Assembly (NCBI RefSeq): GCF_014283215.1
Contig: NZ_JACOMF010000013.1
Coordinates: forward strand, 1-64,000
Origin: Siccirubricoccus deserti
GTDB taxonomy: Bacteria > Pseudomonadota > Alphaproteobacteria > Acetobacterales > Acetobacteraceae
Direction: 5' to 3'
Length of the DNA stretch: 64,000 bases
The translations under genes were made by a program, and so were the position numbers. How positions within the stretch are numbered: position 1 is the first letter of the stretch; every line of letters begins with the position of its first letter. The notes under the pieces were generated by a model, which was not told where the DNA came from, ran no database searches, and saw only the letters and a list, made by a program, of their open reading frames with translations. Of the stretch, positions 17,604 through 27,202 are shown in pieces.

Positions 17604-19103
17604 TCAGCCCCACTCCACCAGCGCGGCGAATCGGCCGTGCTCGACCAGGGATTTCACCGCGGCGATGTCGGGCGCCATCATCCGGTCGGTGTCCCAGGCG
17701 GCGGCGACGCCGCGCACCAGCCCATGCGCGCGTTCCAGCGGCTGCGCGCTCTGCAGCGGGCGGTGGAACTCCAGCCCCTGCGCCGCCGCCAGCAGCTCGA
17801 TCGCCAGGATGCCGGCGAGGTTGTCGGCCATGTCGTGCAGCCGCAGCGCCGCGCCGGTCGCCATGCTGACATGATCCTCCTGGTTGGCGCTGGTCGGCAG
17901 GCTGTCGGTGCTGCGCGGCACCGCCAGGGCGCGGTTCTCGGCGGCCAGCGCCGCGGCGGTCACCTGGGCGAGCATGAAGCCCGAGTTCAGCCCGCCCTCG
18001 CGCACCAGGAAGGCCGGCAGGCCGGAGAGCGCCGGGTCCATCAGCAGGGCGATCCGGCGCTCGGCGATGGCGCCCAGTTCGGCCAGGGCCAGGGCCAGGG
18101 TATCGGCGGCGAAGGCCACCGGCTCGGCGTGGAAATTGCCGCCCGACATCACCTCGCCGCCCTCAACCACCAGCGGGTTGTCGGTGACGGCGTTGGCCTC
18201 GATCTGCAGCACCTGGGCGGCATGCGCCATCAGATCGAGGCAGGCGCCGGCGACCTGCGGCTGGCAGCGCAGCGAATAGGGGTCCTGCACCCGTGGGTCG
18301 CCGATGCGGTGGCTCTCGCGGATGGCGCTGCCGGCCAGCAGCCCGCGCAGCGCGGCGGCGACGCGGATCTGCCCGGGCTGGCCGCGAAGCGCCTGGATGC
18401 GGGCGTCGAAGGGGGTGTCGCTGCCGCGCGCCGCATCCAGGCTCATCGCGCCCGCGACCAAGGCTGTACGCAGCAGATCCTCGGCGGCATAGAGCGCGGC
18501 CAGGGCCAGCGCGGTGCTGACCTGGGTGCCGTTCAGCAGCGCCAGCCCCGCCTTCGGGCCGAGGATGAGGGGCGCAAGGCCGGCGCCGGCCAGGGCCTCG
18601 GCACCGGGGCGGATGGCGCCGCCGGCGAAGGCCTCGCCCTCGCCAACCAGCACCAGGGCAAGATGGGCAAGCGGCGCCAGATCGCCCGAGGCGCCGACCG
18701 AGCCGCGCGCCGGGATGGCGGGGATGATGCCGGCATCGAGCAGCGCCAGCAGCGCCTCCACCACCACCGGCGGCACGCCGGAGGCGCCACGCGCCAGCGA
18801 CAGCGCCTTCAGCGCGATGACCAGCCGCACCACCGGCGCCGGCAGCAGCGGCCCGGTACCGGCGGCATGGCTGCGCACCAGGTTGAGCTGGAGCTGCGCC
18901 AGCTGCTCCGCCGGGATATGGGTGCCGGCCAGCTTGCCGAAGCCGGTGTTGACGCCATAGAGCGGGTCGCCGGTCGCCAGGCGTGCGACCAGGCTGGCAG
19001 CAGAGGCGTCCATCGCCTCGCGCCAGCCCTCCGCCAGGGTAAGCGGCGCGCCTTCCATCACCGCGCGCAGCGCCAGCAGCCCGGCCTGGCCGGGCGCGAT
19101 CAC
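17604..19103 (-). CDS. hutH: Histidine ammonia-lyase
   Basis: 499 residues, normal for HutH. It converts L-histidine to urocanate and ammonia. The self-made MIO cofactor triad Ala138-Ser139-Gly140 sits in [15 protein letters not shown]. The Tyr of [13 protein letters not shown] (Tyr49) and the [13 protein letters not shown] and [13 protein letters not shown] segments are all present. The start is GTG 19103, whose bases overlap the hutU stop (GTGA), so the two are translationally coupled. The upstream frame is hutU read-through. The order is hydrolase-hutU-hutH; hutI and hutG are not in the window. Confidence 0.93.
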
Positions 19104-20767
19104 GCGCGGATCATGGGCAGGTCCAGCCCATGCTCCCGCGCGCAGTCGAGGGCGGCCTCGTAGCCGGCATCGGCGTGGCGCATCACGCCGGAGGCGGGGT
19201 CGTTCCAGAGGACACGTCTGAGCCGCCGCGCCGCATCCGCGCTGCCATCGCAGACGATGACCATGCCGGCATGCTGGCTGAACCCCATGCCGACGCCGCC
19301 ACCATGGTGCAGCGACACCCAGGTGGCGCCGGAGGCGGTGTTGAGCAGCGCATTCAGCAGCGGCCAATCGGAGACAGCGTCGGAGCCGTCGCGCATCGCC
19401 TCGGTCTCCCGGTTCGGGCTGGCGACGCTGCCGCTGTCCAGATGATCGCGGCCGATGACGATGGGCCCGATCTCGCCGCGCGCCACCATCTCGTTGAAGG
19501 CGAGGCCGAGCCGGTCGCGCTGACCGAGGCCGACCCAGCAGATCCGCGCCGGCAGCCCCTGGAAGCTGATCCGTGCGCGGGCCATGTCGAGCCAGCGATG
19601 CAGATGCGGGTCATCCGGGATCAGTTCCCGTACCTTCGCATCCGTCCGGTAGATGTCCTCGGGGTCGCCGGAGAGCGCAGCCCAACGGAAGGGGCCGATG
19701 CCGCGGCAGAACAGCGGGCGGATACAGGCCGGCACGAAGCCGGGGAAGCCAAAGGCATTCACCAGCCCATCCTCCTTCGCCATCTGCCGGATGTTGTTGC
19801 CGTAGTCGAGCACCACGGCGCCGCGCGCCTGGAAGTCCAGCATCGCCTGGACGTGCTGCGCCATGCTGCGCCTCGCCGCGGTGGCAACCGCGGCCGGGTC
19901 GCGTTCCCGCAGCTCCGCCCATTGCGCCAGGGTCCAGCCGGCGGGCAGGTAGCCATTCGCCGGGTCATGTGCGCTGGTCTGGTCGGTGACGATGTCCGGC
20001 ACCACGCCGCGGCGCACCAGCTCCGGGAACACCTCCGCCGCATTGCCGAGCAGGCCGACGCCGATCGCGCGCCGTTCCGCGCAGGCTGCGCGGATCATCG
20101 CCAGGGCGGTGTCGAGGTCGTCGGCGCGATGGTCGAGGTAGCGCGTCGCCAACCGCTTCTCGATGCGCGAGGGTTGGCATTCCACCGCCAGCACGCAGGC
20201 GCCGGCGAAGACGCCGGCCAGCGGCTGCGCCCCGCCCATGCCGCCGAGGCCGCCGGTCAGGATCCAGCGTCCCGCGAGATCGCCGCCGAAATGCTGCCGC
20301 CCGCATTCAGCGAAGGTTTCGTAGGTGCCCTGCACGATCCCCTGGCTGCCGATGTAGATCCAGGATCCCGCGGTCATCTGGCCGTACATCATCAGCCCAC
20401 GGCGGTCGAGTTCGGAGAAATGCTCCCAGCTCGCCCAGCGTGGGACGAGGTTGCTGTTGGCGATCAGCACGCGCGGCGCGTCGGCATGAGTCTCGAAGAC
20501 GCCGACCGGCTTGCCGGATTGCACCAGCAGGGTCTCCGTCTCCTCCAGCCGCCGCAGCACCTCGATGATCGCTTCGTAGCTGCGCCAGTCGCGCGCGGCG
20601 CGGCCGATGCCGCCGTAGACCACCAGCTCCCCGGGCTTCTCCGCCACCTCGTCATCGAGGTTGTTCATCAGCATCCGCAGCGGCGCCTCGGTGGTCCAGT
20701 GCTTCGCCGATTTCTCCAGCCCGCGCGGGGCGCGGATCGCGGGGGCGTTGCGGAAGCGGTCGCTCAT
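19100..20767 (-). CDS. hutU: Urocanate hydratase (urocanase)
   Basis: 555 residues, as expected. It hydrates urocanate to imidazolonepropionate using tightly bound NAD+. Family text includes [75 protein letters not shown] and [19 protein letters not shown]. The NAD-binding [11 protein letters not shown] and active-site TDQTSAHD are intact. The ATG 20767 overlaps the stop of the upstream hydrolase (ATGA), and its own stop overlaps the hutH GTG. Three genes thus form one tightly coupled operon. Confidence 0.95.
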
Positions 20768-21657
20768 CGCGGCACCTGCCAGAGGCGGTCGAAGAAGCCG
20801 GCGATCTCGGCGGCGGCGCGGTCCGGGTCCTCGCGGTGGGGGAAATGCCCGAGGCCGTGCAATGGCTGCGCATCCACATCGGTGAAGAACCCGCCGATGC
20901 GGTCCATCCATTCCACCCTCAGCACCGGGTCCAGCGCGCCCCAGCGGATGCAGCTCGGCACCGTCACCGGTGGTGGTGGCGGCAATTCGCCGCGCATCAT
21001 CGCCAGCCGCGCGGCGTTCTGGCTGATGTACCAGTTGAAGCCGCCCTGGAGGTTGCCGGGCTGGAGGAAATTATCGACCCACGCCTCCAGCACATCGTCG
21101 AAGGCCGAGGGATTTCCGGCCGACCAGTGGCGCAGGAAATGGCCGAAGTAGAGCCGGCAGGCCTCGCGCGAGGAGCCAACCAGTGCCGCCGCGAAATCCT
21201 TCTGATGGAAGGATTGGTACCAGATCTCCTTCAGATGGTCCGGCGCCGCCCAGCGGGCGCCGACGCCGGGATAGGGGCAGTCGAAGAAGAACAGCCCGGC
21301 GAAGCGGTCTGGCGCCTGCCGCGCCATGACCTGGGCGACGAAGGCCCCGACGTCATGGCTGACCACCCCGGCGCGGGGGATATCCAGTGCCTCCAGCAGC
21401 GCCAGCATGTCGGCGGCGTGAACCTCGGCGCCGGCCTGGTCGGAAGGGCCAACGTCCGGCTTGTCGGTCGCGCCGAAGCCGCGCAGGTCGGGGGCGATCA
21501 GCTCGAACCGCCCGGCCAGGCGCTGCATCACCGGCTCCCAGCTCAGCCAGAACTCCGGCCAGCCATGCAGCAGCAGCAAGGGGCGGCCGGCCCCGACGCG
21601 GGCGAGGTGGAAGCGCAGGCCGCGGAGGGTGAGTTCGGCGTGGCGAATCCCGGTCAT
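20764..21657 (-). CDS. Alpha/beta hydrolase, epoxide-hydrolase-like, first gene of hut operon
   Basis: 297 residues. [20 protein letters not shown] holds the HGxP oxyanion motif, and [16 protein letters not shown] places Asp102 at the nucleophile elbow. [14 protein letters not shown] supplies the His. An Asp nucleophile is typical of epoxide hydrolases and haloalkane or haloacetate dehalogenases. The start is ATG 21657; the longer TTG frame runs into the PAP2 gene. It overlaps hutU by four bases (ATGA), an unusual partner for histidine breakdown. Whether it acts on a histidine-related compound is unknown. Confidence 0.82.
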
Positions 21658-23369: not shown

Positions 23370-23509
23370 TCGGGTAGCAGATCGGGTCGGCCTTGCAACA
23401 GCGCGGATGGGATGCAAGCTGCGGCAAGGCAATGCCATTGCCGCACTGGGCGGCATAAGGCGGACTACGACCGGCAGGATGCACCGCCGGCACCATGAGG
23501 AAACGCAGC

Positions 23510-24503
23510 ATGCGACTGACCCGCCGGGCCTCCATGATGATCCCGTTCCTGGCTATGCCGGCGGTGAGGCCGGCCCGAGGCCAGGGTTATCCGTCGCGCG
23601 CGGTGCGCATCGTCGTTGCCTATCCGCCGGGCGGCGCGACCGACATCGTCGCGCGCAAGGTGGCGGAGGCGATCGCGCCGACGCTCGGCCAACCGGTGAT
23701 CGTCGAGAACCGTCCCGGTGGCAGCGGCACCATCGGCACCGGGGAGGTGGCGCGCGCCCAGCCGGACGGCCACACGCTGCTGGCGATGGACAGCAGCTAC
23801 TGCATGCTGCCCTACGTCTTTGCCCGGCTGCCCTGGGACCATGCCCAGGACCTGCTGCCGGTCACCGTGTGCAATTTTGCCCCGGTGGTGCTGGCGGTGA
23901 AGGCCAATGCGCGCTGGCCCGACCTGGCGGCGCTGATGGCCGAGGCCCGCGCCAACCCCGCCCGCATCACCTATGGCACCGGCGGCGTCGGCAGCTCCCT
24001 GCATTTCGCGGGCGAGGATTTCCAGCATGACGCCGGCATCGAGCTCTACCATATCCCCTTCAAGGGCGCGGGCGAGGCGACCCTCGGGCTGCTCTCCGGC
24101 ACGGTTGACCTGGTGATGGGCTCGACCCCCTCGGCGATGGCCAATCTGCGCGCCGGCACGATCCGCGCGCTTGCGGTCTGCGGCCGCCAGCGGGTCGCCG
24201 CCCTGCCGGAGGTGCCGACCTTCGCCGAGGCAGGTGCCGACCTTCGCCGAGGCCGGGGTGCCGGGTTTCCAGATGGTCAACTGGACCGGGCTGGCCGCGC
24301 CGAAGGGCACGCCGGAGGCGAACATCAACCGGCTGCAACTGGTGGTGAGCGAGGCGCTGGCGACCGAGCGGATGCAGCAGTTCTTCCTCGCGCAGGGGGC
24401 GACCACGGGCGGCATGCTACCGGCGGAGTTTAGCAAGCTGATCCGAGACGAGGTGGCGCAGTGGCGCGGCGTGGCCGAACGCGTCAAACTGGTGCCGCAA
24501 TAG
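23510..24503 (+). pseudogene. Bug-family binding protein gene broken by a 22-bp duplication
   Basis: The first part is a normal Bug protein: signal peptide from ATG 23510 (GAGGAA upstream), YPSRAVRIVVAYPPGGATD, LGQPVIVENRPGGSGTIGTG and YHIPFKGAGEATLGLLSG. At EVPTFAEAG a 22-base segment is present twice in tandem (24210-24253), which shifts the frame. The original frame then runs to a false stop at 24433. The true C-terminus (VPGFQMVNWTGLAAPKGTPE to WRGVAERVKLVPQ) continues in the next frame to 24503. Deleting one copy restores a full-length protein. Confidence 0.88.
24210..24253 (+). repeat. Exact 22-bp tandem duplication
   Basis: The 22-base unit beginning AGGTGCCGACC and ending GCCGAGGC occurs at 24210-24231 and again at 24232-24253 without mismatch. 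As 22 is not a multiple of three, it disrupts the Bug reading frame. Identity of the copies points to a recent event or an assembly artefact. Confidence 0.9.
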
Positions 24504-24587: not shown

Positions 24588-25391
24588 ATGGGGAACATGG
24601 CGTCCCGCTACACGACGAACTGGCCGACCATCCGCGACCAGGTCAGCCCCGAGGAATGGCAGGCGCGGCTCGATCTCGCCGCCTGCTACCGGCTGGTCGA
24701 TGCCTATGGCATGACCGACATGATCTACAACCACATCACCCTGCGGATCCCCGGCACCGAGCACCTGCTGATCAACCTCTACGGGCTGCTCTACAAGGAG
24801 ATCACCGCGACCAGCCTCGCCAGGATCGATGTCGAGGGGAACATCATCTGGAAGCCGGACACCGAATACGGCATCAACAAATCCGGCTACGTGATCCATG
24901 GCGCCATCCACAAGGCGCGGCCGGATGTGGCGGCGGTGATCCACACCCATACCCGCGCCGGCATGGCCGTTGCCTCGATGAAATGCGGGCTGCTGCCATT
25001 GACCCAGACGACGATGCGCTTCGTTGGCCACCTCGGCTACCATGACTACGAGGGCCCGGCGGTGGATCTGGCCGAGCGCGAGCGGATCGTCGCCGACCTT
25101 GGCCCGCATGACGCGATGATCATGCGGAATCACGGGCTGCTGACCTGTGGCGCCACGGTTCAGCAGGCCTTCAACACGCTGTACCAGCTCGAGATGGCCT
25201 GCCGCGCCCAGGTCGATGCAATGGCCGCGCGCACCGAGCTGGTCATGCCTTCGGCGGAGATCCTGGAGAAGACCGCGCATCTCTACCAGCCGGGCACCCG
25301 CCGCCCCTATGGCGTGCTGGAATGGCACGCCATGCTGCGGCTGCTGGAGGCGGAGCAGAAGAACTCAGGCTTTCCGCCCTACTGGGTCTGA
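24588..25391 (+). CDS. Class II aldolase/adducin-family protein
   Basis: 267 residues. Metal ligands of class II aldolases are visible in AAVIHTHTRAGMAV (HxH) and MRNHGLLTCGATVQQAF, with IYNHITLRIPG and GINKSGYVIHGAIHKARPD as family text. Members cleave or epimerise phosphosugars or act on keto acids with Zn2+. The ATG 24588 has AGAAGG nine bases upstream. It ends 13 bases inside the convergent dehalogenase-like gene. It stands at the left edge of the apparent catabolic island; the substrate is unknown. Confidence 0.85.
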   Translation: MGNMASRYTTNWPTIRDQVSPEEWQARLDLAACYRLVDAYGMTDMIYNHITLRIPGTEHLLINLYGLLYKEITATSLARIDVEGNIIWKPDTEYGINKSGYVIHGAIHKARPDVAAVIHTHTRAGMAVASMKCGLLPLTQTTMRFVGHLGYHDYEGPAVDLAERERIVADLGPHDAMIMRNHGLLTCGATVQQAFNTLYQLEMACRAQVDAMAARTELVMPSAEILEKTAHLYQPGTRRPYGVLEWHAMLRLLEAEQKNSGFPPYWV

Positions 25392-26275
25392 GCCTCGGCC
25401 CCGAAGAAGCGTAGGAACCAGTCGAGCACCTGTTCCGGCGCTTCCTCGTTGATGTAGTGCCCGCCCGGCAGCGCCTCGCCACGCACATCGGCGGCGCGCT
25501 GCTGCCAGAGGCCGAGCGGATCGGCGAAGCGCTTGCCGACGCTGCTGTCCTTTCCCCAGAGCACCAGCAGCGGCATCGCCAGCCTGCGGCCGAGATCGGC
25601 AGTGTCCAGCGCGCAGTCGATGGTCGCCGCCGCGCGGTAGTCGCCACAGGAGCCGCGGATGGTCTTCTCGTTGAAGCAGCGGACGTACTCGTCCCAGATC
25701 GCCGGTGGGATGTGGTTCAGGTCGGCGGTCAGCTTCAGCAGCTTCTTGCGCATGAACCAGTCGGCCGGCACGCTGCCCAGCATGCGTTCCGGGAAATCGG
25801 CGGGCTGCGCCATGAAGGGCCAGTGCCAGCCATTGATCGCCCCCTCCTTGTCCATCGCCGCCCACATGTCGAGCGTCGGCACGATGTCGAGCACCGCCGC
25901 CCGGATCACCGCCTGCGGATGGTCGAGGCACATGCGGTGGGTGGTGCGCCCGCCGCGGTCGTGGCCGGCGACGTGGAAGCGCTCATGGCCCAGCGCCCGC
26001 ATCACCTCGACCTGGTCCTGTGCCATGGCGCGGAAGGAGTAGTTCGAATGGTCCGGCGCCTCGGGCGGTGCCGAGCTGTCGCCATAGCCGCGCAGGTCGG
26101 CGGCGACGACATGGAAGTGCTCGGCCAGACGCGGCGCCACCGCATGCCAGGAGACATGGGTCAGCGGATTGCCGTGCAGCAGCAGCAGCGGCGGCCCGCT
26201 GCCGCCATGCCGCAGCCGGATGCGCGCCCCGCTGGTCTCGATGTCAGTGAGGGTGAAGCCGGGCATGATGTCCAT
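25379..26275 (-). CDS. Fluoroacetate/haloacetate dehalogenase-like alpha/beta hydrolase
   Basis: 298 residues. The nucleophile elbow VAGHDRGGRTTHR gives Asp106 with Arg107 and Arg110, the D-R-x-x-R arrangement that holds the haloacetate carboxylate. His151-Trp152 (GWHWPFMAQP) and Tyr213 (CGDYRAAATID) occupy the halide-pocket positions. Asp130 (VLDIVPT) and His273 (PGGHYINEE) complete the triad. From memory these match the Rhodopseudomonas fluoroacetate dehalogenase residues with a constant offset of four for most. LLLLHGNPLTH is the oxyanion loop. It would hydrolyse a C-halogen bond in the cytoplasm. The start is ATG 26275. Actual substrate range is untested. Confidence 0.82.
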   Translation of the reverse strand: MDIMPGFTLTDIETSGARIRLRHGGSGPPLLLLHGNPLTHVSWHAVAPRLAEHFHVVAADLRGYGDSSAPPEAPDHSNYSFRAMAQDQVEVMRALGHERFHVAGHDRGGRTTHRMCLDHPQAVIRAAVLDIVPTLDMWAAMDKEGAINGWHWPFMAQPADFPERMLGSVPADWFMRKKLLKLTADLNHIPPAIWDEYVRCFNEKTIRGSCGDYRAAATIDCALDTADLGRRLAMPLLVLWGKDSSVGKRFADPLGLWQQRAADVRGEALPGGHYINEEAPEQVLDWFLRFFGAEAQTQ

Positions 26276-26410: not shown

Positions 26411-27202
26411 ATGGATTTCACCGGCAAGGTCGCGGTCGTGACCGGCGGCGCCAACGGCATCGGGCGCGCCGTGTCGCTCGGCTTCGTGGAGCGCGGCGCG
26501 AAGGTGGTCATCGTCGACCGCGATGCGGCGGCGGGGGAGGCGCTGGCCGCCGAGATCGGCAAGGCGGCGATCTTCCGCGCCGCGGACGTCACCCGCGCGG
26601 CGGATGTCGCGGCCTATGTGAAGGCGGCGGTCGACAGCTTCGGCGCGATCGACTGCTTCCACAACAACGCCGGCATCGAGGGCCGCGTGGCGCCGACTGC
26701 GGAGTATGACGAAGCGGTGTTCGACGCGGTGATGGGGGTGAACGTCAAGGGCGTGTTCCTCGGCCTGCGCCACGTGTTGCCGGTGATGATCGGCCAGGGG
26801 CGCGGGGCGGTGGTGAACACCGCCTCGATCGCCGGGCTGGTCGGCACCGCGGGGATGCCGGCCTATGTCGCCTCCAAGCATGCGGTCATCGGCTTGACCA
26901 AGGTGGCGGCGGGGGAGGTTGGCAAGCTCGGCATTCGCGTCAATGCGATCTGCCCCGGGCCGATTTCCACCCGCATGGTGCAGGACATCGCCCGGCAGGT
27001 GTCGCCGAACAATCCCGAGAGCGTCGAGGAGACCTATGCCTCCGGCATTCCGCTGCGCCGCTACGGCACGGCGGAGGAAGTGGCGAACCTCGTCCTGTTC
27101 CTCTGCTCCGACCTCGCCAGCAACATCACCGGGGCACAGTATGTCGTCGATGGCGGGCGGACGGCGGCGCCGGCCGGTGTGGCCCAGGCGGGCATGCGAT
27201 AG
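26411..27202 (+). CDS. Short-chain dehydrogenase/reductase (SDR)
   Basis: 263 residues, classical SDR. The cofactor motif is VVTGGANGIGRAV, and NNAG lies within CFHNNAGIEG. The catalytic Ser is in VVNTASIAG, and Tyr/Lys in AYVASKHAV. The Asp in VIVDRD after strand 2 suggests NAD+ over NADP+. The C-terminus has NITGAQYVVDGGRT. The ATG 26411 has GGGAGGA upstream. It is divergent from the dehalogenase-like gene and followed after 143 bases by the Dpp-type permeases. It probably oxidises an alcohol intermediate. Confidence 0.9.
   Translation: MDFTGKVAVVTGGANGIGRAVSLGFVERGAKVVIVDRDAAAGEALAAEIGKAAIFRAADVTRAADVAAYVKAAVDSFGAIDCFHNNAGIEGRVAPTAEYDEAVFDAVMGVNVKGVFLGLRHVLPVMIGQGRGAVVNTASIAGLVGTAGMPAYVASKHAVIGLTKVAAGEVGKLGIRVNAICPGPISTRMVQDIARQVSPNNPESVEETYASGIPLRRYGTAEEVANLVLFLCSDLASNITGAQYVVDGGRTAAPAGVAQAGMR

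Follow-up and report, generated by a model that had tools for sequence, protein, structure and literature searches.

A Siccirubricoccus deserti hydrolase from the fluoroacetate dehalogenase family, altered in its substrate pocket

The 64-kb stretch of Siccirubricoccus deserti DNA analysed here (64,000 nucleotides, hereafter the window) encodes, at 25379–26275 on the minus strand, an alpha/beta hydrolase, 298 amino acids long, that belongs to the fluoroacetate dehalogenase family. We judge it probable that this protein is an Asp-nucleophile hydrolase acting on carboxylates with a 2-substituent, probably a halogen, and that its pocket is enlarged. Its family, fold, residue identities and pocket substitutions were computed, and its mechanism was inferred by homology. 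The first-pass annotation had read the gene as a fluoroacetate dehalogenase with the full active site in a catabolic cluster; the family and the mechanism class stand, but the active site is altered at two pocket positions, the residues cited do not discriminate between substrates, and the cluster is weak evidence. By family the hydrolase is unremarkable; what makes it of interest is its branch.

Family, fold and catalytic residues

The open reading frame runs from an ATG at 26275 to a stop at 25379–25381, and translation of the minus strand gives the 298-residue protein; the plus strand does not encode the hydrolase. Pfam assigns the protein to Abhydrolase_1, and the NCBIfam search returned sub-threshold matches only, so that the hydrolase has no curated name; for haloalkane dehalogenase the score was 56.3 bits, far below the curated cut-off of 241. 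The closest solved relatives in a PDB sequence search, all of the same family, are Alr0039, Daro3835, the enzyme of Delftia acidovorans D4B, a Pseudomonas aeruginosa protein, RPA1163 and FA1. Similarity is far above chance (phmmer E-values of 5.9e-90 to Alr0039 and 1.6e-75 to RPA1163), and identity to the characterised fluoroacetate dehalogenases is 44–49%. An AlphaFold2 model built with a 43-sequence alignment as input (mean pLDDT 95.4, pTM 0.94) was used for the structure-based comparison with PDB fluoroacetate dehalogenases that had been proposed as a check. It superposes on Alr0039, RPA1163, Daro3835, the D4B enzyme and FA1 with an rmsd of 1.0–1.5 Å over about 290 residues (about 1.1 Å for both Alr0039 and RPA1163), with VIA-align Z scores of 46.9 for Alr0039, 44.5–46.5 for many RPA1163 entries and 44.5–47 overall. 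The fold and the assignment to the fluoroacetate dehalogenase family are settled.

All eight active-site residues named in the first-pass annotation were correctly numbered and align with their counterparts in RPA1163. In the joint alignment, the Asp-His-Asp triad consists of the nucleophile Asp106 (codon at 25958–25960; RPA1163 D110), the base His273 (25457–25459; H280) and the acid Asp130 (25886–25888; D134). The DRGxR carboxylate-binding pair is formed by Arg107 and Arg110 (25946–25957; R111 and R114), and the halide pocket by His151-Trp152 (25820–25825; H155 and W156) and Tyr213 (25637–25639; Y219), all encoded on the minus strand. The same eight residues also align with the equivalents in FA1, H-1, Daro3835 and Alr0039. 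The offset to RPA1163, described as constant, is in fact 4 for Asp106, Arg107, Arg110, Asp130, His151 and Trp152, 6 for Tyr213 and 7 for His273.

Across 141 aligned family members drawn from public genomes, plasmid pUO1 and the PDB, Arg107, Arg110, Asp130, Trp152 and Tyr213 occur without exception, Asp106 and His273 in 140 each, and His151 in 136. Being nearly or fully invariant, these residues mark the family and cannot show whether a member acts on fluoroacetate or on something else; a checklist of Asp, Arg, Arg, His, Trp and Tyr, nearly constant across the whole family, cannot on its own justify the label. A few members depart from the pattern. One that is about 45% identical (L105) has Asn in place of the nucleophile and is probably inactive or changed in its chemistry, and in a small subgroup (L091, L113 and L148) the motif is HGHP and Gln stands in place of the pocket Trp. 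In some members of this HGHP/Gln subgroup, with a Salmonella 'putative acyltransferase' (PDB 4nvr), the halide-pocket His is replaced by Trp.

The rarity of C–F bond cleavage had been offered as a reason for interest, but the gene family itself is common: it was found in 25 of 60 relatives, in 74 of 289 alphaproteobacterial genomes and in 338 plasmid records. The same genome carries a second member (L002), 44–48% identical to the hydrolase, which belongs to another HGNP branch and has Glu at the pocket-Trp position.

The altered pocket and the closest known enzymes

In the joint alignment the two divergent positions are Asn36 of an HGNP motif (26168–26170, minus strand) and Leu182 (25730–25732, minus strand), the latter at the place of the pocket Trp known as W185 in RPA1163 and W180 in H-1. 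HGNP resembles the motif of haloalkane dehalogenases, in which the Asn is a halide ligand; no weight is placed on this resemblance here. The five enzymes reported as fluoroacetate dehalogenases in PMC11022551 (RPA1163, FA1, H-1, Daro3835 and Alr0039) have HG[F/Y]P, with Phe or Tyr at the position of Asn36, and Trp at RPA1163 position 185. The active site that had been called full is therefore intact at its eight catalytic, carboxylate and halide residues and not at these two positions, both of which are aromatic in the five characterised enzymes.

The two positions covary among the 141 aligned sequences: all 37 with the Trp have Phe or Tyr at position 36, and none of the 93 with Asn36 has the Trp. 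After reduction to a single representative of each 60% identity cluster, the counts are 16/3/0/9 (Fisher p 3e-5, in a test that ignores phylogeny). In the hydrolase's own clade, defined as 38 sequences with at least 77% identity, all 38 have Asn36, 37 have Leu182 and 35 have Gly145 (34 combine the three), and none has Trp182. Tree support is 100/100 for this clade and 100/97 for the larger Asn36 group around it. An 87% identical homologue (L017) occurs in Plastoroseomonas hellenica, a close relative that can be cultured. The hydrolase belongs to a branch that has lost the pocket Trp and carries HGNP in place of HG[F/Y]P, and no tested Asn36 enzyme was identified among the homologues in this analysis.

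The nearest characterised enzyme is Alr0039/NOS0089 of Nostoc sp. (PDB 3QYJ), which is 49% identical, shares the eight residues and groups with the hydrolase's branch with moderate support. It defluorinates fluoroacetate and difluoroacetate (PMC11022551) but has HGYP and the pocket Trp where the hydrolase has HGNP and Leu182. RPA1163 of Rhodopseudomonas palustris (3R3U; 44% identity) agrees with it in the triad, the Arg pair and the residues of the halide pocket and differs by the replacements Phe40 to Asn36, Tyr149 to Gly145, Lys152 to Asn148, Trp185 to Leu182 and Ile253 to Ser245. DehH1/FAcD-H1 (H-1; Delftia acidovorans B, plasmid pUO1) is likewise 44% identical with shared catalytic residues, but has Trp180 and HGFP. 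The Pseudomonas aeruginosa 'putative epoxide hydrolase' (4B9A/4B9E; 45% identity), for which a PDB structure with bound MFA exists, shares the catalytic residues and also lacks the Trp, having Met; it differs in its HGYP motif and in its pocket loop.

The D4B fluoroacetate dehalogenase (9C9F) bears most directly on the altered positions. It is 49% identical with shared catalytic residues, and neither it nor the hydrolase has the pocket Trp or an aromatic HGXP residue; in D4B the motif is HGHP and Arg replaces the Trp, whereas the hydrolase has Asn and Leu. Since this Trp-less enzyme is called a fluoroacetate dehalogenase, the pocket Trp, though present in the five characterised enzymes, is common rather than defining, and activity of the hydrolase stays plausible. 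The 9C9F protein is probably DeHa4, the D4B fluoroacetate dehalogenase that PMC13419579 reports as active on mono- and difluoroacetate.

Gene neighbourhood

The hydrolase gene is alone on its strand. Its plus-strand neighbours, neither of which we judge to be part of its system, are a convergent gene for a class II aldolase family protein (NCBIfam PRK07044; 24588–25391), which overlaps it by 13 bases, and a divergent SDR oxidoreductase gene (26411–27202). The catabolic cluster suggested for this locus is weak: the genes next to the hydrolase gene are encoded on the opposite strand, orthologues do not share them, and none is a fluoride or fluoroacetate resistance gene. As orthologues at 77–91% identity mostly have different neighbours, save short shared runs in subgroups, the gene cluster was ruled out as evidence of function. 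Genes that do recur are those for DUF3237, 3-hydroxyisobutyrate dehydrogenase and an acyl-CoA synthetase-like protein in one subgroup (four loci), TctC receptors and an amidase in Alcaligenaceae, and PrpF/oxalomesaconate tautomerase or TctC-TctA in the sister clade. These hint at carboxylic-acid metabolism, with no named pathway.

A TctC receptor beside the gene was also considered as a clue and found uninformative, as the 6.3 Mb genome has at least 150 TctC-type receptor genes. One such gene, upstream at 23495–24503 on the plus strand, contains an exact 22-base tandem duplication at 24210–24253 that shifts its frame; either the gene is disrupted or the assembly is wrong here.

About 4 kb away, at 20764–21657 on the minus strand, lies a second alpha/beta hydrolase gene of epoxide-hydrolase type, with 8hgu and isobutylene epoxide hydrolase as best matches. 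It directly follows genes for a histidine ammonia-lyase (17604–19103) and a urocanase-like protein (19100–20767; labelled from sequence only), also on the minus strand. It clearly differs from the hydrolase at 25379–26275: its product has HGWP, lacks the Arg pair and reads Asp-Val-Gly-Ala-Phe around the nucleophile.

Unlike our gene, that of H-1, a proven fluoroacetate dehalogenase, is flanked by methyltransferase, thioesterase and crcB genes, and Caballeronia S22 has the same gene set as pUO1 (PMC11812338). None of the three was found in the 64-kb window, and a search of 147 homologous loci, many with short flanks, gave only one weak partial methyltransferase match. The single CrcB gene of the genome lies on another contig and has no link to the hydrolase gene, and no fluoride riboswitch was found in the window or in the genome. 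Each of these results argues against fluoroacetate as the main or native substrate.

Candidate substrates and mechanism

In the mechanism that we propose by homology, Arg107 and Arg110 would hold a small carboxylate for attack by Asp106 on its alpha carbon. His151, Trp152 and Tyr213 would stabilise the departing group, most likely a halide. The resulting enzyme ester would then be hydrolysed by a water molecule that His273-Asp130 activates, giving the 2-hydroxy acid. Judging by residue size, Gly145 and Leu182, the latter in place of the Trp, should enlarge the pocket; we therefore expect the substrate to be a 2-haloacid, or an acid with similar activation at position 2, that exceeds fluoroacetate somewhat in size, and fluoroacetate and chloroacetate may be weaker substrates. 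Engineering of RPA1163 is consistent with this expectation, in that smaller residues at this Trp are described in PMC12955510 (citing Zhang 2020) as letting the enzyme accept bulkier alpha-fluoro acids, and PDB structures of its W185G and W185Y variants with bulky fluoroacids exist.

A true fluoroacetate dehalogenase, with fluoroacetate as its main or native substrate, is in our view unlikely. All eight residues match, the nearest characterised relative is active on fluoroacetate, and the D4B enzyme, in which His and Arg occupy the altered positions, together with the activity reported for DeHa4, suggests that the Trp may not be strictly needed. Against this stand the loss of the Trp, the HGNP motif and the neighbourhood results above. 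In growth selections with H-1 on 2-fluoropropionate, Trp180 was almost exclusively retained, and a selection on fluoroacetate retained it too (PMC12955510), so that its loss in the hydrolase could mean loss of C–F cleavage. Defluorination by the hydrolase is plausible and a larger substrate at least as likely; we give about an even chance to any in vitro release of fluoride from fluoroacetate by the enzyme.

It is quite improbable that the fold and the polar pocket were kept for a non-halogenated substrate in organic-acid catabolism, either an epoxy acid or a carboxylic acid in the form of an activated ester or lactone. Genes near members of the clade and its sister clade (acyl-CoA synthetase-like, 3-hydroxyisobutyrate dehydrogenase, amidase, PrpF/oxalomesaconate tautomerase and isocitrate/isopropylmalate-type dehydrogenase) would suit such a role, but they vary between loci and therefore support no single pathway. 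A His/Tyr pair also opens the epoxide in Cif-type epoxide hydrolases (PMC8244358), which makes His151 and Tyr213 a candidate pair, yet canonical epoxide hydrolases usually have an aromatic HGXP residue (PMC8244358) where the hydrolase has Asn. The hydrolase also keeps the family's Arg pair and Trp152, and the epoxide-hydrolase-type paralogue looks different from it.

The reading that we prefer, a 2-substituted and probably 2-halo carboxylate in an enlarged pocket, may extend beyond this one protein. We tentatively suggest, while holding it somewhat doubtful, that the Trp-less HGNP branch, with its relatives in Acetobacteraceae, Alcaligenaceae and Hyphomicrobiales, forms a natural and distinct substrate class whose enlarged pocket would take bulkier 2-halo or other 2-activated carboxylic acids. 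If so, the branch would be the natural counterpart of the engineered RPA1163 W185 variants. Organofluorine clean-up seeks defluorinases that take larger substrates, and exactly the Trp that engineers removed is naturally missing in the HGNP branch, so that its roughly 90 natural Trp-less homologues offer a ready set for screening.
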